Positions 2,881 to 12,007 of a DNA stretch of 64,000 nucleotides are shown one piece after another. This DNA comes from Clostridia bacterium. Lineage in GTDB: Bacteria; Bacillota; Clostridia; Oscillospirales; Acutalibacteraceae. The notes beneath the pieces were generated by a model that was not told where the DNA came from, made no database searches, and saw nothing but the letters and a program-made list of their open reading frames with translations. The first letter of the stretch is position 1. Each line of letters begins with the position of its first letter. The stretch is from assembly GCA_017550625.1 (NCBI GenBank), contig JAFZOL010000034.1:1-64000 (forward strand), given 5' to 3'. A program made the position numbers and the translations under genes.

Positions 2881-2916
2881 TATTCTTCCAAAAGCTGTAT
2901 ATTGCATAAAAACTTG

Positions 2917-2945
2917 GTCCGGAATGTTGCATTCCGGACTTTTTT
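2917..2945 (+). terminator. Rho-independent terminator after tdk
   Basis: GTCCGGAATG (2917-2926), loop TTG, CATTCCGGAC (2930-2939), then six T. The loop and right arm also contain the -35 box of the next operon. Confidence 0.85.
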
Positions 2946-2996: not shown

Positions 2997-4385
2997 ATGC
3001 CGAATTTCTATGATCTGATCCCTTCGCAGCTGAATATGTACCTGATGGTCAAATTCAGTCCGCACAAGCAGATCGTGCAGATCCCCACGTCCTTCGCCAT
3101 CGACAAGGATATCGATTTCGACCTGCTCACGAAGGCGCTGAACATCGAATACCAGCGCAACGACTCCCTGCGCCTGCGTTTCAAGCAGACCAAGGGCAAG
3201 CTCAAACAGTATTTCCTTGATTCCTACCGCGTCGACAGCGTGCCGATCCTGCATTTCTCTTCCGCCGAAGAGCAGGACGCCTTCTTCGCAAAGGATGCGC
3301 AGACCCCGGTGAGATTCCTGAAGGACGAGATTTTGCGCATCTATTTCTTCGTCGCGCACGACGGCAAAAAGGGCGTTTACCTCTGCTGCTCGCACCTCGC
3401 GATCGACGCGATGGGCATGATGGTGTTCTTCTACGACCTGCTCGGCGTGTATAAGGCGCTCCTGAAGGGCGAAGAGATGCCCGCGCCGCTCTATTCCTAT
3501 GAGGAATACATCGTTTCCGAGCTCGAGAAGTCCACGAACGAAAAGCGGCTCGCCAAGGGGCAGGCGTTCTACGCCGAGTATTTTGCCAAGGGCGGCGAGC
3601 CCTTCTACGCCGGCGTGCACGGCCCCGCCCTGCTCGAGAAAGAGCGCAAAAAGACCGGCAACCCCGATCTTCACGTCACGAAGGCTGCCTACGCGCCCCA
3701 GAACTCCAAGGCCAAGGTCATCGCGCTCGGCATCGACAAAGAGAAGACCCAGAAGATCTTCGATTTCTGCCGCGCCAACAACGTGGCGCCCGAAAGCCTG
3801 TTCACCTTCGCCATGCGCACCTACTGCTCGGCAATCAACTACCGCACCGAGGACGTGTTCTATAACCTGATGTGCTCGAAGCGCGTGTCCTACAAGGATA
3901 TGCGCACCGGCGGGTGCATGGCGCAGACCCTGCAGGTCCGCACCCTGATCCCCGAAACGGCGACGTTCATGGAGGGCCTCGACGAGATCTTCCGCGTGCG
4001 CACGGCCCTGTACCGGCATCTGAGCTATCCGTTCATCTATGCCCGCGGGATGCTCATGAAGATGTATAACCACGCCACCACCGAGGGCGTCGCGGCGTTC
4101 ATGTTCTCGTGGCTGCCGATCCCGGTGGACCAGCTCGGCGAGCTCGGCCTCAAGGTGGATTTTAAGACCTATAACCTCGGGCATTATTTCAACCCGCTCT
4201 ACGCGATCTGCTATCCCGATCCCGAAACGGGCGGCGTGATGATGCACTATATGTACCGCGTCAAGATCGTCACGCCCGAAGAAGTGCGGCTGCTGCATGA
4301 GAACATGGTGGATATCATCATGAAGGGCATCGAAGCGCCCGACACCACCATCGGCAAGCTGATGGACGAGGTCGAGGCCGAATAA
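2997..4385 (+). CDS. Free-standing condensation-domain protein (NRPS C-domain fold)
   Basis: The 462-residue protein has the length and pattern of a single condensation domain of the CAT/NRPS superfamily. The active-site motif HHxxxDG appears as 'SHLAIDA' at 132-138: the catalytic second His (His133) and Asp137 are kept, the first His is Ser and the Gly is Ala. 'RNDSLRLRF' at 54-62 resembles the early C-domain motif 'RHxxLR'. No adenylation or carrier domain is fused. It is the first gene of an operon that continues with an adenylating ligase (13-base gap), an acyl carrier protein and a phosphopantetheinyl transferase. By inference it takes an acyl group from that carrier protein and passes it to an amine or alcohol, or it works on a second carrier elsewhere. 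The product is unknown. A simple acyltransferase of the same fold is the alternative. Confidence 0.75.
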   Translation: MPNFYDLIPSQLNMYLMVKFSPHKQIVQIPTSFAIDKDIDFDLLTKALNIEYQRNDSLRLRFKQTKGKLKQYFLDSYRVDSVPILHFSSAEEQDAFFAKDAQTPVRFLKDEILRIYFFVAHDGKKGVYLCCSHLAIDAMGMMVFFYDLLGVYKALLKGEEMPAPLYSYEEYIVSELEKSTNEKRLAKGQAFYAEYFAKGGEPFYAGVHGPALLEKERKKTGNPDLHVTKAAYAPQNSKAKVIALGIDKEKTQKIFDFCRANNVAPESLFTFAMRTYCSAINYRTEDVFYNLMCSKRVSYKDMRTGGCMAQTLQVRTLIPETATFMEGLDEIFRVRTALYRHLSYPFIYARGMLMKMYNHATTEGVAAFMFSWLPIPVDQLGELGLKVDFKTYNLGHYFNPLYAICYPDPETGGVMMHYMYRVKIVTPEEVRLLHENMVDIIMKGIEAPDTTIGKLMDEVEAE

Positions 4386-4398
4386 AGGAGGCAACACA

Positions 4399-6147
4399 GT
4401 GCTGACGAAACAGGAGAAAAAAGAACTCGCGGTCATCCGCCACCAGGTCCACATGATGGGCGAGCTGCTCACGCTCAAAATGATCATCGACCGCATGGAG
4501 GTCTACGGCGAGCGCATCTGCATGGTCGAGAAGCGCAAAGAAGAGATCATCCAGCACTCGGTCAACGATTTCCGCGCCGACGTTTTCGCGCTGGGCACGG
4601 CGCTGCTGAAACACGGCTTCAAGGGCAAGCACCTCGGCATCATCGCCGAAAACTCCTACGCGTGGGTCGTCACGTTTTTCGCCGTCACCTGCGGCGTGGG
4701 CGTGGTCGTTCCGATCGACAAAGAGCTCGACGACGAAACGATCTCTCTGCTGCTCAAAAAGGCGGACGTCGAGGGCGTGTTCTTCTCAAAAATGTACCAG
4801 AAGAGCGCGAAATACCACATGGAGCACGACGAGACCTGCCCGGTCGGCGTCTGCTTCAACAAGGAATACCCCGAAGAGAACATCCTCAATTACGACGCCC
4901 TCGTGGCCGAGGGCAAGGCGCTCGTGGCCGAGGGCGACCGCAGCTATATCGACATCGAGGTCCATAAGGACGATCTCGCCGCCATCGTGTTCACGTCGGG
5001 CACCACCGGCGTCAACAAGGGCGTCATGCTCACCCACGGCAATTTCGCGCAGAACGCCGACGGCGTGCTCGAATCCATCCCGCCCGAGTATTCGTCCATC
5101 AGCCTTTTGCCGATGAACCACGTCTACGAGCTGTCGTGCAACATCCTCACGGCGATCTACATGAACGCCACGATCTATATCAACGACAGCCTCAAGAATT
5201 TCCAGAAGAACCTGCAGCTCTTCAAGCCCGACGCGATGGCCGTCGTGCCGCTCGTGATCGACACGATCTACAACACGATCTGGAAGACCGCCGAGCAGAC
5301 CGGCCGCACCGAGGTGCTCAAAAAGGGCATCAAGATGTCGAACGCCCTGATGAAGGTCGGCATTGATATCCGCCCGAAGCTTTTCTCGCAGATCGCCGAA
5401 AAGTTCGGCGGCAAGTTCCCCACCTTCTCGTGCGGCGGCGCGCCCTCGCGCATCGAATACGTCAAGTGCCTGTGCGACATCGGCTTCAATATCTATAACG
5501 GCTACGGCCTCACCGAGTCGAGCCCCACGGTCACCTTGAATCTCGACGTGCGCGGCAATCCCGACTGCGCCGGCAAGGCGTTCCCGAAGGCGAAGTTCAC
5601 GATCCACGAGCCCGACAAAGACGGCGTCGGCGAGATCTGGATCAAAGGCGAGAACGTGACGCAGGGCTACTATAAGGACGAGGAGGCCACCAAGGCCTCG
5701 TTCGAGGACGGCTGGTTCAAGACCGGCGACTACGGCCGCGTCGACGACAAGGGCCTGCTGTATATCGTCGGCAGAAAGAAGAACCTCATCATTCTCGACA
5801 ACGGCAAAAACGTCTTCCCCGAAGAAGTCGAGGCCTTCTGCATGGAGCACATCGACTACATCCACGAGGTTGTGGTGTTCGAGGGCGAAAAGCCGATCAA
5901 CGGCCGCCCGCAGAAGATCATCGTGGGCGCCTTCCAGGTCGATCCCGCCGACTTCCCGGAGATGAGCGAAGAGGAGCTCAAGCAGAAGGTGAGCGACGAC
6001 GTCACCGCCGTCAACAAGCTCCTGCCGGGCTATAAACGCATCAACGACGTATTCGTGTCCACCACCGAATTCGAGATCAATTCCACCCGCAAGGTCATCC
6101 GCAAAAAGGTGGAGGACCGCTATTACGAAAGCCTGAAAAACGCCTGA
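4399..6147 (+). CDS. AMP-forming acyl ligase (adenylation enzyme), stand-alone
   Basis: This 582-residue member of the ANL superfamily probably activates a carboxylic acid as acyl-AMP. The phosphate-binding loop is 'FTSGTTGVNKG' at 198-208. 'YNGYGLTESSP' at about 368-378 is the A5 motif, 'FKTGDYG' at about 437-443 is A7, and 'GRKKNLIILDNGKNVFPEE' is the hinge region. The catalytic lysine is probably in 'STRKVIRKK' near the C-terminus. The whole is closer to long-chain fatty acyl ligases than to amino-acid-specific NRPS adenylation domains. The start is a GTG 13 bases after the condensation gene, preceded by AAAGGAGG. The adjacent carrier protein makes loading of an acyl group onto its phosphopantetheine the likely role; acyl-CoA formation is possible too. 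The substrate cannot be read from the sequence. Confidence 0.88.
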   Translation: MLTKQEKKELAVIRHQVHMMGELLTLKMIIDRMEVYGERICMVEKRKEEIIQHSVNDFRADVFALGTALLKHGFKGKHLGIIAENSYAWVVTFFAVTCGVGVVVPIDKELDDETISLLLKKADVEGVFFSKMYQKSAKYHMEHDETCPVGVCFNKEYPEENILNYDALVAEGKALVAEGDRSYIDIEVHKDDLAAIVFTSGTTGVNKGVMLTHGNFAQNADGVLESIPPEYSSISLLPMNHVYELSCNILTAIYMNATIYINDSLKNFQKNLQLFKPDAMAVVPLVIDTIYNTIWKTAEQTGRTEVLKKGIKMSNALMKVGIDIRPKLFSQIAEKFGGKFPTFSCGGAPSRIEYVKCLCDIGFNIYNGYGLTESSPTVTLNLDVRGNPDCAGKAFPKAKFTIHEPDKDGVGEIWIKGENVTQGYYKDEEATKASFEDGWFKTGDYGRVDDKGLLYIVGRKKNLIILDNGKNVFPEEVEAFCMEHIDYIHEVVVFEGEKPINGRPQKIIVGAFQVDPADFPEMSEEELKQKVSDDVTAVNKLLPGYKRINDVFVSTTEFEINSTRKVIRKKVEDRYYESLKNA

Positions 6148-6164
6148 TCAAGGAGGAATATATA

Positions 6165-6392
6165 ATGCTTGAAAGAATCAGAAACATCATCTGCGAGTTC
6201 GTCGATATCGACCCCGAAGAGATCACCCTTGAAACCAACATCCGCAAGGATCTCGGGCTCAACTCGCTCGAGCTCGTGAATCTCGCCGTCGAGATCGAAG
6301 AGGAATTCGACGTTGAGATCCCCGACCGCGAGGCTATGGGTCTCGAGACCGTCGAGGACGCGATCCGCATCATCGAGGAATACATGGAATAA
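6165..6392 (+). CDS. Acyl carrier protein, dedicated to the cluster
   Basis: A 75-residue acidic four-helix carrier protein. The phosphopantetheine site is 'LGLNSLELV' with Ser34. The residue before Ser is Asn instead of the usual Asp of the DSL motif, a change that can matter for recognition by the transferase. It lies 17 bases after the ligase and has its own AAGGAGG site. A transferase gene of the Sfp type follows, so the holo form can be made locally. It is probably not the fatty acid synthesis ACP, because no fab genes are nearby. It probably carries the acyl chain from the ligase to the condensation protein. Confidence 0.9.
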   Translation: MLERIRNIICEFVDIDPEEITLETNIRKDLGLNSLELVNLAVEIEEEFDVEIPDREAMGLETVEDAIRIIEEYME

Positions 6393-6400
6393 GGAGATCC

Positions 6401-6435
6401 CGAAAAGCAGCCGGCTTTACTACCGGCTCTTTTCG
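6401..6435 (+). terminator. Intra-operon hairpin between ACP and phosphopantetheinyl transferase
   Basis: CGAAAAG (6401-6407) and AGCCGG (6409-6414) pair with CCGGCT (6423-6428) and CTTTTCG (6429-6435). The T run is short and mixed, so it may be a weak terminator or an RNA-processing or stability element that lowers expression of the downstream gene. The downstream ribosome-binding site is weak. Confidence 0.5.
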
Positions 6436-6443
6436 TATCGGGT

Positions 6444-7049
6444 ATGAAGATCGTCAGGATCAGCGTCGGGCAGTTTACCGACGCGCAGTTTGCCGAAGGG
6501 TATCTGCATATGTCGCCCGCGCGGCGCGAAAAGTGTGACCGTTACAGGCGCGAGATCGACCGAAAGTGCTGCATCGCCGCCGACATGGCTGTGAGAAACG
6601 CGCTCTCGGCGCGCTTCGGCGTGTCCCCGGCTGAGATCAATATCCGCGTCACGCCCGAAGGCAAGCCTTACGCGCCCGATTTCCCGGTCCGGTTCTCCTA
6701 CGCCCATTGCGAAGGCGAGATCGTGCTGGCGCTCGGCGAGCGCGAGGTCGGCGCGGACATCGAGCGCGTGCGCCCCGTGTCGCCCCGCATCACGCGGTAT
6801 TTCTGCTGCGACTCCGACCTTGTTTACGTCTTCGGCGCGCCCGCCGCGCCTGAAACCGACCCGATCGAAGATCCCGAAGTTCTTTCGCGCCTGTTTGAAG
6901 TCTGGACCTTCAAAGAGGCGCTCGGCAAGGCGTGGGGCACGGGCCTTACCAAAGAGACCAAATACGCCCCCTTTAACGACTACCCCAAATATCTCGCGCG
7001 CGAAGGGGACTTCGCTCTCTGCGCCTATGAATGTGAGGAAAACGCATGA
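6444..7049 (+). CDS. 4'-phosphopantetheinyl transferase, Sfp type
   Basis: A 201-residue enzyme that moves phosphopantetheine from CoA to the conserved Ser of a carrier protein. 'FSYAHCEG' at 84-91 gives His88 of the family's central motif. 'VGADIERVRP' at 102-111 holds the Mg-binding Asp105 and Glu107. 'FEVWTFKEALGKAWGTGL' at 151-168 is the W-x-x-KEA motif. It lies 51 bases after the acyl carrier gene, with a hairpin in between and a weak ribosome-binding site. Its natural target is presumably that carrier protein. Sfp-type enzymes usually serve secondary metabolism, which fits a biosynthetic cluster; it could also act on other carriers in the cell. Confidence 0.9.
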   Translation: MKIVRISVGQFTDAQFAEGYLHMSPARREKCDRYRREIDRKCCIAADMAVRNALSARFGVSPAEINIRVTPEGKPYAPDFPVRFSYAHCEGEIVLALGEREVGADIERVRPVSPRITRYFCCDSDLVYVFGAPAAPETDPIEDPEVLSRLFEVWTFKEALGKAWGTGLTKETKYAPFNDYPKYLAREGDFALCAYECEENA

Positions 7050-7684
7050 ACACCGGTTTTGAGCCCTGGATCCTGATCGCCGCAGCCGCCGTGCTGGTCG
7101 TTGCGGCTGTGATCATTCTGGGCGTTGTGTTCACCAAACGCCTCAACAGCGACAGGCCCAGCGAATCCGATATCGCGGGCAGGCGCGGCGAGGAGCTCGC
7201 GATGAACGCGATCGTGCGCGTTTTGCGCGAGGGCGACCGCCTGTTCACGAACGTGCCTGTGGAATACGAGGGCAAGGTCACCGAGCTTGACAACGTGATC
7301 GTGAATGAAAACGGCGTATTCATCATCGAGGTCAAAAACTATTCCGGCAGGCTCGAGGGCTCCGTCAACGACTTCGAGTGGAAAAAGTTCCATCGCAGCA
7401 AGGGCGGCAAGACCTATATGAAGATCGTGAAGAACCCGATCAGGCAGGTCAAGCGCCAGATCTTTCTCCTGTCTCACTATTTCAAGAGTCAGGGGCTGAA
7501 CGTCTGGATCAGCGGCTACGTCCTCCTGCTCGAGGATAACGCCCCCGTGAAGAGCGACATGATCCTGTCGAACGCCGACGCGATCGACCGCGCGATCCAC
7601 CGCAAAACGCCGAAAGCCCCGGACCTGCGCACCACGCGCCTCGTGTCGCATCTGCTGTCGGGGCGCGAGATCCCGAAAGAATAA
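7046..7684 (+). CDS. Membrane-anchored NERD-domain protein
   Basis: The 212-residue protein has one N-terminal membrane helix (about 5-28, 'WILIAAAAVLVVAAVIILGVV') and then a nuclease-related domain. 'GRRGEELAMNAI' at about 48-59 and 'ELDNVIVNENGVFIIEVKNYSG' at about 78-99 are the NERD core, with the D...ExK arrangement of nuclease-like folds. Its ATG overlaps the stop of the transferase gene (ATGA), so the two are translationally coupled and it is the last gene of the operon. Its role with a biosynthetic cluster is unclear. NERD proteins are often of unknown function, and it may be a passenger. A bidirectional terminator follows. Confidence 0.85.
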   Translation: MNTGFEPWILIAAAAVLVVAAVIILGVVFTKRLNSDRPSESDIAGRRGEELAMNAIVRVLREGDRLFTNVPVEYEGKVTELDNVIVNENGVFIIEVKNYSGRLEGSVNDFEWKKFHRSKGGKTYMKIVKNPIRQVKRQIFLLSHYFKSQGLNVWISGYVLLLEDNAPVKSDMILSNADAIDRAIHRKTPKAPDLRTTRLVSHLLSGREIPKE

Positions 7685-7741: not shown

Positions 7742-10700
7742 TTATTCCACGGATTTGAGGGATTCCACCATGTCGATGCGCCTGGTCTTCTTGCGCAGCA
7801 GCAGGTTCACGGCGGCGATGATCGCCACGGTGATCCCCACCGCGAGGGCGTATGCCCACCAGTGGATCTCCTGTCCGTACATGACCGTATCGATGGCGGT
7901 GTAGGTGATGAGAAGCTTGTGCAGCCCGATGCCGAGGCCCACGCCGCACAGGATGCCGAAGAACGACACCATCATGTTCTCGCGCAGGATATACCTGCCC
8001 ACCTCGCTCTCGTTGAAGCCCAGCACCTTCAGGGTGGCGAGCTCGCGCGTGCGCTCGATGATGTTGATGTTCGCGAGGTTATAGAGCACCACGATGGCGA
8101 GCACGAGGGCGGATACGAAGAAGATCACGATGACGAGCGACAAAGCGTTCGTGATCTCGCCGATGCTCTTGGTGGTCTCGCTCGTGAACGCCACGGTGGT
8201 CACGCCGGTCTGGCGCATAAAGTCGGTGGCAAGCAGGCCCTTGAGCGCGTCGAGCTCCGATCCCGTCGTCGCCTTCAGGCTCTCCGACAGCGTGCCGATC
8301 GCGTAGCCGAACACCGGCGCCTCGCCCACGGTCTTCTGATAGAGGGCGGGGGAGAGGAAGATATAGTGGAAGGTGTAGTTCTCGGCGATCGCCGCCACGG
8401 GCACCTTATACACGTTCCCGGCGGCGTCGGTGAACGAGATCTCGTCGCCGACCTCGGTTTTCGTGTCTTTGGCAAGCTTTTCGGTGATGATCGCCCCGTC
8501 GTCGGTGAGCGTGTAGGACGTCTCTGGCGCCTTGCGGTCGTGCAGGGCGAAGAAATCCGTCAGCCGCTCGGGGTTCTCGGGCACGAGGACGTAGGTCTCG
8601 AGCTTCTTGCTTGCCCGGTCGCTGAAGGCGTTGGTGCTCTTCATCGAGATGAGGTTCATCGAGGCCACTCTCGCGTCAAGCGACACGGCGGTGTATTCGG
8701 TCGTGTGCACGGGCGTGGTCTGCGGGTTGTCGAACACCACCTGGAGGTCGTATTTCGAGATCGCGTCGGCGCCGTCGTACTGCTTGCCCTTGATGGCGGA
8801 GATGGAGTTATAGAACCCAACGCTGCCGAGCAGCATGGCGGTGCACCCCGCGATGCCCACGAGCGTCATAAAGAACCGGCTCTTGTTGCGGAACAGGTTT
8901 CTCAGCGTCACCTTGCGCGAGAAGCTCAGGCTCCTCCAGATGAAGGGGATGTGCTCCAGCAAAATGCGCCTGCCCTTTTTCGGGGCCTTCGGGCGCATCA
9001 GCTTCGCGGGGGCGAGGCGCAGATTCCCGAGCACCGCGAGCACTGTGACCACCACGGTGGACAAAAGCGCGATCGCGAGGCCCACGACGGCCCAGTTGAC
9101 CGGGAACGAGTATTCCATCGCCGGCAGATCGTACATGATCGAATAGGCCGCCGATACCGCCATCGGGATGAGCCGATAGCCGAGCCCCATGCCGAGCGCC
9201 GCGCCGAGAAGCCCGGCGAGCAGGGAATAGAGCACGTATTTCATCAAGATCGAGCCGTTGCGGTAGCCGAGCGCCTTATAGGTGCCGATGAGCGTGCGGT
9301 CCTCGTCCACGAGGCGCGTCACGGTGGTGAGCACTACGAGCGAGGATATGATGAAGAAGAAGATCGGAAAGATGTTCGAGATGACCTCGATGTTCGCCAC
9401 GGCCTGCCCGTAGCCGGTATAGCCGGGCGTGTCGCCGCGGTCGTAGATATCCCACTCCACGTCGTCGAGCTTGGCGTATAAGAGCTTCGCGTCGGCGAGC
9501 TTCGATTTCGCGTAGGCGAGGCCCGTTTCAAGCTGCGCCTCCACCGACGCCTTCGTGGCAAGGGCGGTGTCGAGCTGGGCGGGAGCGGCCTGCAGCTGCG
9601 CCTGCAGCTCCTTGAGCTGGTTCTGCGCTTCCAGCTTTTTGATCGTCGCCTGCAGGTTCGCGTCCTGCAGCTTCACGCCCATGTTCTGCAGCACCTGTTC
9701 ATAGGTCCGCAGGGCGTTCTCGGCGTCCGAAAGCGCCACCTGCGCCTGGTTGCTCTGGATCGCGGCGGTCTCGAGCTCGAGCTTCTTTTCGTCGAGGATC
9801 GTCTTTTGCGCGGCGAGCAGGGCGGTTGCCTCGTCGAGCTTCTGCTGCTGCTTTGCAAGCTCCGCGGTCTCCTGTTCGATATAGGGCTCAAGGTTCGCGA
9901 GCACTTCGGTCGCGAGCCCCTGGGCTGACATGCCCCGGATCGTGTTATAGAGCTCCGGGTTGGTCGTCTGGATGAGCGTGAGAAGCGACTGCGCCTGCTC
10001 GTTCGACATGTTTGAAACGCCCATGTCCTCCACGCGCTGCATCATGCTTTTCGCTGCTTCGAGCATGCTCTGGGTGTTTTCAAGCTGGGCGCGCGCGCTT
10101 TCCAAAGACGCGACCTTGCTGTTGTATTCCTGCAGGGCGTCGTCGTAGGCGGCGGAATTCGCCTGCAGCTCCAGCGCTTTCTGATTGTACTCGGCCTTCG
10201 CGTTGTTGAGCGCCGCGCTCTGCTCGGAATACTCCGTGATCGCGTTCTGATAGGCTTCTGTGTTATACTGCAGGGTAGCGTCCACGTTCGCGAATTCCTC
10301 GTTGAACTTATCCTGCGCCTGCTGCATGATCGAATCGCCGTTGTCCACGAGGTTCTGCAGTGTGATGATCGTGGCGTTCAGGTCGCTCAGCGACAGGGCG
10401 ACCTCCTGCTCCTTGGACGAGATCTCCGCCTCGGCGGTGCTGATCTCCTTCTGCAGGGTCGGGCGCAGGTCGCTCACGCGGTTCGCGATCAGGTGCGGCG
10501 ACTTATACTCGATCTGCTTCTTGACCTCGTCCACGTGGGAGAAATAATCGTCCGAGAACGGCTCGTATTCGTCCGAGCCCTCCACTTTGATATATACTTC
10601 GGAATAATAATCGGTTGAAAACGCCTGCTCTGGCACGATGATGAAGGTGCCGAGCTTGCCGCTGCCGATGTCGGTGTTGCCGCGCTCGAACGAGAGATAA

Positions 10701-11293
10701 TAGGGCGAGCGCACGATGCCCACGATCGTGAAGGTATCGGTGTTCAGGGCCTCCGGCGTTTCGTCGCCGCTGTTTTTCAGCGTGATGATCGATCCGAGCC
10801 GGTAGCTCTCGGGGGTCGACAGTCGCGACGCGTCCACGAGACATTCGCCCTTCTGCGGAAAGCGCCCCTCGATCAGCTCTACGCGGTTGATGTAGTCGCC
10901 GTCGTCCATATTGTGCGTGTAGTTATAAAGTTTGTCCGTCGACACGCCGTACACGCGCGTGGTGATGCGCGTGCCGTCGATATCGAGCTCGGGCACGCCG
11001 TTGACCGAAACGAAGGCGTCGGTGAACTTTTCGCTGGACAGGAACTCAACGCCCTCGACCTTCGAGAGCGCCTCCAGATCCGTGTCGGTGAGCCCGATGG
11101 TGGACCGCACGCGGATATCCATTAAATTGCAGTCGGTGAAGTACGTTTCGGCGTTGTCATACATGTCGGGCGCGGTGGCCTTCATTCCCACGAAGAAGGC
11201 GGTGCCGAGCGCGACCATCAGCAGGATCGACAGAAACCGGCTGAAATTCTTTTTGATCGTCCTTAACGTATCGAGAAAAAGCGGGCCTGACAA
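7742..11293 (-). CDS. ABC transporter permease, FtsX/MacB family, with long coiled-coil ectodomain
   Basis: A 1183-residue permease. An N-terminal membrane helix (about 17-36) is followed by an extracytoplasmic region that includes a very long Gln/Glu/Ala-rich coiled coil (about 260-620). Then come a first FtsX domain with three helices (about 640-770), a further helix near 800, a second extracytoplasmic domain, and a final FtsX domain (about 1060-1175, with 'ERTRELATLKVLGF'). Two FtsX repeats in one chain match MacB-like or lipoprotein-export-like permeases of Firmicutes. The start is a TTG at 11293, chosen because AAGGAGG stands seven bases upstream. The ATPase gene precedes it by 12 bases, so the pair forms one exporter or mechanotransmitter. 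The substrate is unknown; antimicrobial peptides or cell-wall hydrolase control are common roles. Confidence 0.88.
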   Translation of the reverse strand: MSGPLFLDTLRTIKKNFSRFLSILLMVALGTAFFVGMKATAPDMYDNAETYFTDCNLMDIRVRSTIGLTDTDLEALSKVEGVEFLSSEKFTDAFVSVNGVPELDIDGTRITTRVYGVSTDKLYNYTHNMDDGDYINRVELIEGRFPQKGECLVDASRLSTPESYRLGSIITLKNSGDETPEALNTDTFTIVGIVRSPYYLSFERGNTDIGSGKLGTFIIVPEQAFSTDYYSEVYIKVEGSDEYEPFSDDYFSHVDEVKKQIEYKSPHLIANRVSDLRPTLQKEISTAEAEISSKEQEVALSLSDLNATIITLQNLVDNGDSIMQQAQDKFNEEFANVDATLQYNTEAYQNAITEYSEQSAALNNAKAEYNQKALELQANSAAYDDALQEYNSKVASLESARAQLENTQSMLEAAKSMMQRVEDMGVSNMSNEQAQSLLTLIQTTNPELYNTIRGMSAQGLATEVLANLEPYIEQETAELAKQQQKLDEATALLAAQKTILDEKKLELETAAIQSNQAQVALSDAENALRTYEQVLQNMGVKLQDANLQATIKKLEAQNQLKELQAQLQAAPAQLDTALATKASVEAQLETGLAYAKSKLADAKLLYAKLDDVEWDIYDRGDTPGYTGYGQAVANIEVISNIFPIFFFIISSLVVLTTVTRLVDEDRTLIGTYKALGYRNGSILMKYVLYSLLAGLLGAALGMGLGYRLIPMAVSAAYSIMYDLPAMEYSFPVNWAVVGLAIALLSTVVVTVLAVLGNLRLAPAKLMRPKAPKKGRRILLEHIPFIWRSLSFSRKVTLRNLFRNKSRFFMTLVGIAGCTAMLLGSVGFYNSISAIKGKQYDGADAISKYDLQVVFDNPQTTPVHTTEYTAVSLDARVASMNLISMKSTNAFSDRASKKLETYVLVPENPERLTDFFALHDRKAPETSYTLTDDGAIITEKLAKDTKTEVGDEISFTDAAGNVYKVPVAAIAENYTFHYIFLSPALYQKTVGEAPVFGYAIGTLSESLKATTGSELDALKGLLATDFMRQTGVTTVAFTSETTKSIGEITNALSLVIVIFFVSALVLAIVVLYNLANINIIERTRELATLKVLGFNESEVGRYILRENMMVSFFGILCGVGLGIGLHKLLITYTAIDTVMYGQEIHWWAYALAVGITVAIIAAVNLLLRKKTRRIDMVESLKSVE

Positions 11294-11305
11294 ATCGCGT
11301 CCTCC

Positions 11306-12007
11306 TTACCACTCCAGGCTGTCGACCGGCAGGGGATTGTCCCTCACCGTGATTCGCTGGACCCTACCGTTTTTTAAGGTGATCACGCGGTTACCGATCG
11401 GCGTGATGCCCGTGTTGTGCGTGATGATCACCACGGTCATGCCGGTGTCGCGTGAAGTGTTCTGCAGCAATTCCAGAATGCTCTTGCCCGTGGCGGAATC
11501 GAGCGCGCCTGTCGGCTCGTCGCACAGCAAGAGCTTCGGGTTCTTGGCGAGCGCACGGGCGATGGCAACGCGCTGCTGCTCGCCGCCCGAGAGCTGCGAG
11601 GGGAAGTTCTGCGCACGGTCGCCCAGCCCCACGCGTTCAAGCAGGCGCATCGGCGACAGCGACTTTTTAGAAAGGGAAGAGGCGAGCTCCACGTTCTCGA
11701 GCGCGGTAAGGTTCGGCACGAGGTTATAGAACTGGAACACGAAGCCCACGTCCTGCCTGCGGTAGACCGACAGCTTGCGGGCGTTCATGTTCGAAATGAG
11801 CTCGCCGCCCACGCGCACCTTGCCGTCGTCGCAGGCGTCGATGCCGCCCAAAATGTTGAGCACGGTGGTCTTGCCGGCGCCCGAGGGGCCCACGACCATG
11901 CACAGCTCGCCCTGTTCGATGCTGAAAGAAACGCCGTCGAGCGCCGTGATCGTCACTTCGCCCATCTTGTATTTTTTGTAAACGGAACTTAGCTCGATAA
12001 AGCTCAT
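11306..12007 (-). CDS. ABC transporter ATP-binding protein, MacB/LolD type
   Basis: A 233-residue ATPase that powers the permease encoded just downstream. Walker A is 'GPSGAGKTT' at 40-48, the Q-loop is 'FQFYNL' at 91-96, the signature is 'LSGGEQQRVAIARAL' at 139-153, Walker B is 'LLLCDEPTGALD' at 159-170, and the switch His is in 'IITHN'. The 'EPTGALD' form is typical of the LolD/MacB/FtsE subfamily, which pairs with FtsX-type permeases. The two genes are 12 bases apart and share one promoter. No histidine kinase or resistance gene adjoins them, so the inducing signal cannot be read. Confidence 0.93.
   Translation of the reverse strand: MSFIELSSVYKKYKMGEVTITALDGVSFSIEQGELCMVVGPSGAGKTTVLNILGGIDACDDGKVRVGGELISNMNARKLSVYRRQDVGFVFQFYNLVPNLTALENVELASSLSKKSLSPMRLLERVGLGDRAQNFPSQLSGGEQQRVAIARALAKNPKLLLCDEPTGALDSATGKSILELLQNTSRDTGMTVVIITHNTGITPIGNRVITLKNGRVQRITVRDNPLPVDSLEW

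Follow-up and report, generated by a model that had tools for sequence, protein, structure and literature searches.

A dispersed C-A-T gene set in an Acutalibacteraceae genome is a probable N-acyl amide synthase fed by scavenged fatty acids

The locus and the closest described systems

According to PMC13142362, OaaC is a stand-alone condensation protein by which fatty acids bound to acyl carrier protein (ACP) are linked to free small amines. FAA (fatty-acid amide) systems form the amide from acyl-ACP and a free amine and do not use acyl-CoA, and for OaaC an autoinhibitory homodimer is known. A three-gene set known as the CTA operon has been described from the Lachnospiraceae Blautia wexlerae and Coprococcus catus (PMC13060934, citing Chang 2021). 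According to the same source, live strains with this operon produce oleoyl, palmitoyl and linoleoyl ethanolamine in larger amounts, and homologues at 70% identity were found in Lachnospiraceae only, in 36 species. The FAA makers that we met in these two papers (PMC13142362, PMC13060934) were Lachnospiraceae with CTA operons. Here we describe a locus in a 64,000-nt stretch of DNA (the window) from contig JAFZOL010000034.1 of a gut-type Clostridia bacterium of the Acutalibacteraceae, whose genome is 97.5% complete (GCA_017550625.1). In this locus, genes for a condensation protein (C), an AMP-forming acyl ligase (A) and an ACP (T) are followed by genes for a phosphopantetheinyl transferase (P) and a NERD-domain protein (N). 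We propose, at a probability of about three in four, that these genes specify an N-acyl amide synthase of the FAA type, in which C, A and T are separate proteins and which is fed with scavenged fatty acid.

An earlier note on this DNA, made from the letters alone, had listed five genes on one strand with short gaps, and the open reading frames (ORFs) and Pfam profiles confirmed them. All five lie on the plus strand where that note had placed them, with intergenic gaps of 13 (C/A), 17 (A/T), 51 (T/P) and -4 (P/N) bases. Families were assigned by Pfam profiles with curated cut-offs, which all five proteins exceeded, and these assignments are far beyond chance. The complete but dispersed C/A/T set that the note described is borne out by the separate ORFs and their Pfam matches.

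Like the OAA system of Coprococcus eutactus (OaaC/OaaA/OaaACP), the window locus encodes C, A and ACP separately, and the two C proteins are homologous over their full length and share the FAA-type insertion and the catalytic second His and Asp. The two systems differ in the motif (SHxxxDA in the window, DHxxxDS in OaaC), in the gene order (C-A-T against C-T-A), in the linked phosphopantetheinyl transferase of the window and in its host genus, which lacks FabF over the cut-off. The CTA operon is likewise a three-gene acyl amine cassette but has the order C-T-A. Its homologues were reported from Lachnospiraceae, and L010, which is closely related to the window locus, comes from a metagenome-assembled genome (MAG) labelled Oscillospiraceae. 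C shares the PF00668 fold family and the HxxxD core with starter and canonical C domains of nonribosomal peptide synthetases (NRPS) such as PvdL, tyrocidine synthetase and VibH, whereas a canonical NRPS module carries C, A and T on a single polypeptide with an HHxxxDG motif. As far as the sequences tell, it is the branch, the C-A-T order and the hosts without a strong FabF match that are new here, the acyl-amide chemistry being already known from related gut bacteria. Among the open-licence papers listed in our searches we saw no account of this branch or of hosts for it that lack fatty acid synthesis, nor any title or abstract on this lineage in searches for gut Clostridia without such synthesis; an earlier description in Chang 2021 is possible.

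The condensation protein and its gene neighbourhood

The best PDB match of C was 12KH (E 1.6e-44, residues 3-457), followed by PvdL at 1.1e-8. The data statement of PMC13142362 gives 12KH as OaaC of C. eutactus. Pairwise alignment of C and OaaC was full-length, with 24% identity over 462 columns. A C family profile built from 78 relatives, with OaaC left out, scored 12KH at 496.7 bits among solved chains and the runner-up at 103.2 bits.

The catalytic motif of C reads S132-H133-L-A-I-D137-A, and the S-H-x-x-x-D with His133 and Asp137 is as the earlier note had described it. Neither residue varied among 78 sequences in an alignment of the window's C and 77 of the 89 listed sequences, the remainder being duplicates, long-branched or left out. 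In PMC13142362, the FAA set carries a (D/H)HxxxDS-type motif in which the second His and the Asp are more than 99% conserved and the residue after the Asp is Ser (42%) or Ala (36%). The window's C agrees with this motif in the second His, the Asp and the following Ala; its first residue, Ser, is neither D nor H and falls outside the published wording. The altered first His had been taken as a trait that sets the cluster apart, but the first position varies among relatives and SHxxxDA is the most frequent form, found in 21 of 71 FAA-type rows (OaaC among the 71; L102, apparently misaligned at the motif, counted as found); it is typical of a subclade. The motif has HH throughout the 17 NRPS C domains that were taken from the same bacterial family.

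Compared with a modular C domain, OaaC is reported to carry an insertion of 17 residues (PMC13142362). The FAA-type insertion is present in C, and the segment that holds it measured 40-50 residues (median 47) across the 71 FAA-type rows but 24-29 residues in the 17 NRPS C domains, which are without the insertion.

Phylogenetic trees placed C in the same group. Of the 88 rows in the first tree, 17 were the NRPS C domains, one was OaaC and the other 70 were stand-alone C proteins taken from the loci; the branch that separated the NRPS domains from the rest had an SH-aLRT support of 100. A more careful tree kept 62 of the 88 rows, 10 having been dropped for long branches or odd placement and 16 in thinning near relatives; here the split between FAA-type and NRPS rows was supported at 100/99, and the FAA-type rows fell into an OaaC side of 24 rows (99/96) and a window side of 27 rows (100/100). 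Both trees were built without starter C domains from curated clusters, which have been published as the nearest relatives. By our reading of the genus codes, the window branch spans 13 genera in the sample, the window's genus counted. Judged by profile and trees, C thus groups with the amide-forming OaaC and not with unrelated acyltransferases or NRPS C domains, which lie on the opposite side of both trees. We therefore assign C, on sequence grounds, to the FAA type of condensation proteins. Within this type it forms, on these trees, a deep sister branch to that of OaaC, distinct and genus-wide, which is a new aspect with respect to the known systems.

The 70 loci behind the tree are 65 from the family, four named ones and the window; L007 duplicates L128, L008 duplicates L129, L009 duplicates L130, and L133 is contained in L010. 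When A and T were sought within 2.5 kb of C on the same strand, both were present at 53 loci, in the orders A-C-T (18), C-A-T (13), C-T-A (13), A-C-T-A (3), A-T-C (3), A-A-C-T (2) and A-C-A-T (1). The remaining 17 loci, some of them at contig ends, had C alone (10), C-T (5), C-A (1) or A-C (1). Within this sample the C-A-T order was confined to the window side of the tree. In the window's genus, all 26 genomes contained at least one match to its C in a short open frame, homology here being judged by similarity and not all homologues being placed on the tree. Where the C gene is orthologous to that of the window, the order is C-A-T, except that A is missing in L135 and L136 and that some are cut by contig ends; the claim that the order is kept beyond this genome therefore holds for most orthologous loci of the genus.

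Several loci depart from a full set. At L044, L045, L135 and L136, C adjoins T and the ligase is missing between them, so loading there would take place in trans. At L049, L051, L055 and L141-L146 the C protein is 42-48% identical to the window's and keeps the catalytic His and Asp, and neither A nor T was detected near it, some of these loci lying at contig ends. L101, L103 and L105 form a long-branched A-T-C lineage with the motifs YHxxxDS or FHxxxDS, far from both main branches.

Acyl supply and the proposed reactions

Type II fatty acid synthesis would be expected to come with FabF, FabH and AcpS, and the window's genome and genus do not fit this expectation. No match over the cut-off was obtained in the 26 genus genomes for FabF (TIGR03150; one weak match) or AcpS (TIGR00516; three weak matches), and no match at all for PlsX (PF02504) or FakA (TIGR03599). 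A FabH-type PF08541 match was present in 3 of the 26 genomes, and profile searches of the window's own genome found neither FabF nor FabH. Control genomes gave matches in each search, but for AcpS only 8 of 14 matched and 5 of 14 were over its strict cut-off. With FabF over the cut-off lacking in the genus and FabH in the genome, the diet, the host or other bacteria are the expected sources of the acyl chain. T passes the FAS-type ACP model TIGR00517 (72.2 against a cut-off of 70.45). The candidate explanation that T is the housekeeping ACP of fatty acid synthesis and P its AcpS was rejected, since neither FabF nor AcpS exceeds its cut-off in the genus.

These gaps bear on an alternative by which the main task of A and T, together with P, is to capture fatty acids from outside as acyl-ACP for the phospholipids of the membrane, C being an outlet added to this route. 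It would suit a genus in which each of FabF, AcpS, PlsX and FakA is found in 0 of 26 genomes over the cut-off, so that the standard Firmicute acyl-phosphate routes seem to be missing, as well as a T that scores as FAS-type. The persistence of C and T without A between them at the four loci named above argues against it, and no lipid gene was recognised beside the window cluster, although PlsB, PlsC and PlsY were not searched and loci lacking C would be invisible; we regard this alternative as very unlikely.

The distribution of FabF was also followed in 300 genomes of the family, where it was strong in 107 (101 over the cut-off) and weak in 6. The other 193 genomes lacked a strong match, so that many members of the family seem to be without fatty acid synthesis. 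Strong FabF was found in 0 of 24 genomes with a window-side C (one weak match, in G076) and in 0 of 14 genomes of an A-C-T subclade on the OaaC side, but in 15 of the 16 remaining OaaC-side genomes, which are mostly C-T-A; the host genomes of five loci outside these C groups were also without it. Stand-alone C was about as frequent in genomes with strong FabF (15/107) as in those without (32/193), and the idea that FAA systems are tied to the loss of fatty acid synthesis was rejected for lack of enrichment. It is the C type alone that splits by FabF status, and this may simply follow the species tree and shared ancestry. Since window-side hosts lack strong FabF, each product molecule would use up a scavenged, probably dietary or host, fatty acid.

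A keeps the TSGTTGxNKG stretch and the lysine of a C-terminal STRK, both invariant in 18 of 18 aligned sequences, and a fatty-acyl ligase acting on ACP fits the operon. The AMP-forming enzyme AasS loads ACP in the way proposed for A. Among carriers of the sample, NSL was the commonest attachment motif (23 of 61) and DSL occurred in 2 of 61, counts that are rough because they come from a simple pattern applied to 69 carriers, with the last match per carrier taken and L007/L128 and L009/L130 each counted twice. By this pattern, carrier sites in the sample as a rule have no Asp ahead of the Ser, and the Asn-Ser-Leu site of T, once seen as distinguishing, would be typical of its subclade.

In the mechanism that we propose, P would convert apo-T to holo-T, as its family suggests. 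A would adenylate a free fatty acid, taken up from the diet, the host or other bacteria as the missing genes imply, and load it onto the pantetheine thiol of T. By analogy with OaaC, C would then use His133 to transfer the acyl group from acyl-T to a small amine that diffuses freely, and the product set free would be an N-acyl amide. The parts of this scheme, their families, the residue conservation, the co-occurrence of the genes and the lack of ketosynthase matches are directly supported. If the chemistry holds, more gut bacteria would be able to turn diet lipids into signalling-type amides, and it could be tested directly whether the bacterium itself benefits from them.

The acceptor could instead be an amino acid, with the same machinery making an N-acyl amino acid or lipoamino acid in place of the amide of a decarboxylated amine. 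GH3 proteins are acyl-adenylating and amino-acid conjugating, and at three window-side loci C stands directly behind a gene for a full GH3-family protein (L046:5355-7031, L047:1573-3240 and L052:8468-10162); the annotated neighbours of the window cluster (a glycosidase of family 4, thymidine kinase and an FtsX permease) also include no amine-making enzyme. Yet no GH3 protein was seen beside the window's own C, and FAA C proteins are said in PMC13142362 to exclude proteogenic and nonproteogenic amino acids, so that an amino acid acceptor appears unlikely. L052 also encodes, ahead of GH3 and C-A-T, a 1375-aa fusion of AMP-binding, PP, thioester-reductase and Fe-alcohol-dehydrogenase domains.

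A further proposal concerns the use of the product, namely that, in a genus showing neither fatty acid synthesis de novo nor the PlsX/FakA acyl-phosphate route, the C-A-T sets are a core acyl-ACP node that charges scavenged fatty acids onto FAS-like carriers and makes amide-linked aminolipids for the cell's own membrane or envelope, with host-active amides as a by-product. It would explain why a stand-alone C is found in 26 of 26 genus genomes and why solo C and C-T loci exist beside full cassettes; we nevertheless consider it decidedly improbable.

Several points weigh against an FAA-type synthase fed with scavenged fatty acid. The A profile gave nothing at 1e-50 among solved chains and, at 1e-25, matched FadD13 best (163 bits) and AasS less well (100 bits); the profile is thus closer to acyl-CoA ligases and the product of A may be an acyl-CoA, which makes the ligase chemistry the weakest link of the mechanism. 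With only 24% identity to OaaC and a place in the sister branch, the window system may differ from OaaC in its substrate and even in the class of its acceptor. That fatty acid synthesis is absent was concluded from profile searches in MAGs, with a strict AcpS cut-off. Neither A nor T was detected beside C at 10 of the 70 loci, so that not every relative works as a cassette. Finally, the search for loci started from the window's C, and any that have lost C would escape it.

Trailing genes and neighbours

P contains G-x-D-x-E and W-x-x-K-E-A stretches, which we take to be typical of Sfp-type transferases, and its best NCBIfam matches were the HetI and AusB types, far under their cut-offs. It is the sole PF01648 match found in the window's genome and should therefore serve all carriers there. 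PF01648 matches were found in 268 of the 300 family genomes, and a stand-alone C was placed in 47; other carriers must therefore need P too, and a P dedicated to the C-A-T pathway was rejected.

P and N might also be independent genes that merely trail a C-A-T operon. A hairpin lies between T and P (Table 1), P does not follow T at L130, L131 and L139, where hairpins 3' of T were seen by eye, and N occurs at two loci only. On the other side, P comes directly after T, without an intervening gene, at 8 of the 11 genus loci with enough sequence (the window, L128, L041, L135, L136, L137, L138 and L140), and it should serve T whether co-transcribed or not. We hold the independence of P and N to be possible, at somewhat less than even odds.

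The two loci with N are the window and L007/L128, the latter being two handles for one stretch of DNA. N as a working part was rejected on this distribution, and it is probably a neighbour and not a part of the system, although the NERD protein had been named as setting the cluster apart. Of the earlier note as a whole, the C/A/T set, the conserved order and the grouping with OaaC stand, and the three features said to distinguish the cluster do not. Two of the three outcomes that it had named as refuting, a C that clusters with unrelated acyltransferases and an order confined to this genome, did not occur.

Table 1. Positions of the locus and its flanking features in the window
Feature	Position	Strand	Evidence
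Terminator-like hairpin 3' of the upstream thymidine kinase gene	2916..2940	+	11 pairs, T run
C, stand-alone condensation protein, FAA type, 462 aa	2997..4385	+	PF00668 Condensation 105.5 bits; OaaC match; trees
Catalytic motif codons of C, S132 to A138	3390..3410	+	read from sequence; H133, D137 invariant 78/78
A, AMP-forming acyl ligase, proposed acyl-ACP loader, 582 aa	4399..6147	+	PF00501 AMP-binding 177.3 bits; PF23562 AMP-binding_C_3 36.7 bits
T, acyl carrier protein, 75 aa, attachment site LGLNSLE	6165..6392	+	PF00550 PP-binding 63.6 bits
T-P hairpin, possible terminator or attenuator	6409..6428	+	short T run; fold z -3.16
P, Sfp/HetI-like 4'-phosphopantetheinyl transferase	6444..7049	+	PF01648 ACPS 42.0 bits
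N, NERD-domain protein, N-terminal hydrophobic stretch, probably passenger	7046..7684	+	PF08378 78.0 bits
Convergent genes for an FtsX/MacB-type permease (1183 aa) and an ABC ATPase	7742-12007	-	

The hairpin 3' of the thymidine kinase gene sets off the start of the operon. As to the hairpin between T and P, a terminator scan of the region found 6 sites against a shuffle mean of 6.0, that is, no enrichment, and P and N may or may not share the C-A-T transcript. The convergent FtsX/MacB-type permease downstream was present at 8 of 10 genus loci, the exceptions being L135 and the 985 bases that L130 has after T. Together with the ABC ATPase it is a possible exporter, or its position may reflect simple synteny.

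The window's genome contains three stand-alone C systems. Besides the window locus, contig C13 (L104) has the order A-C-T-A with two ligases and contig C44 (L069) the order A-C-T, and contig C74 carries NRPS C domains. Over aligned columns, identity between the window's C and the two other stand-alone C proteins of its genome is 33% and 20%.

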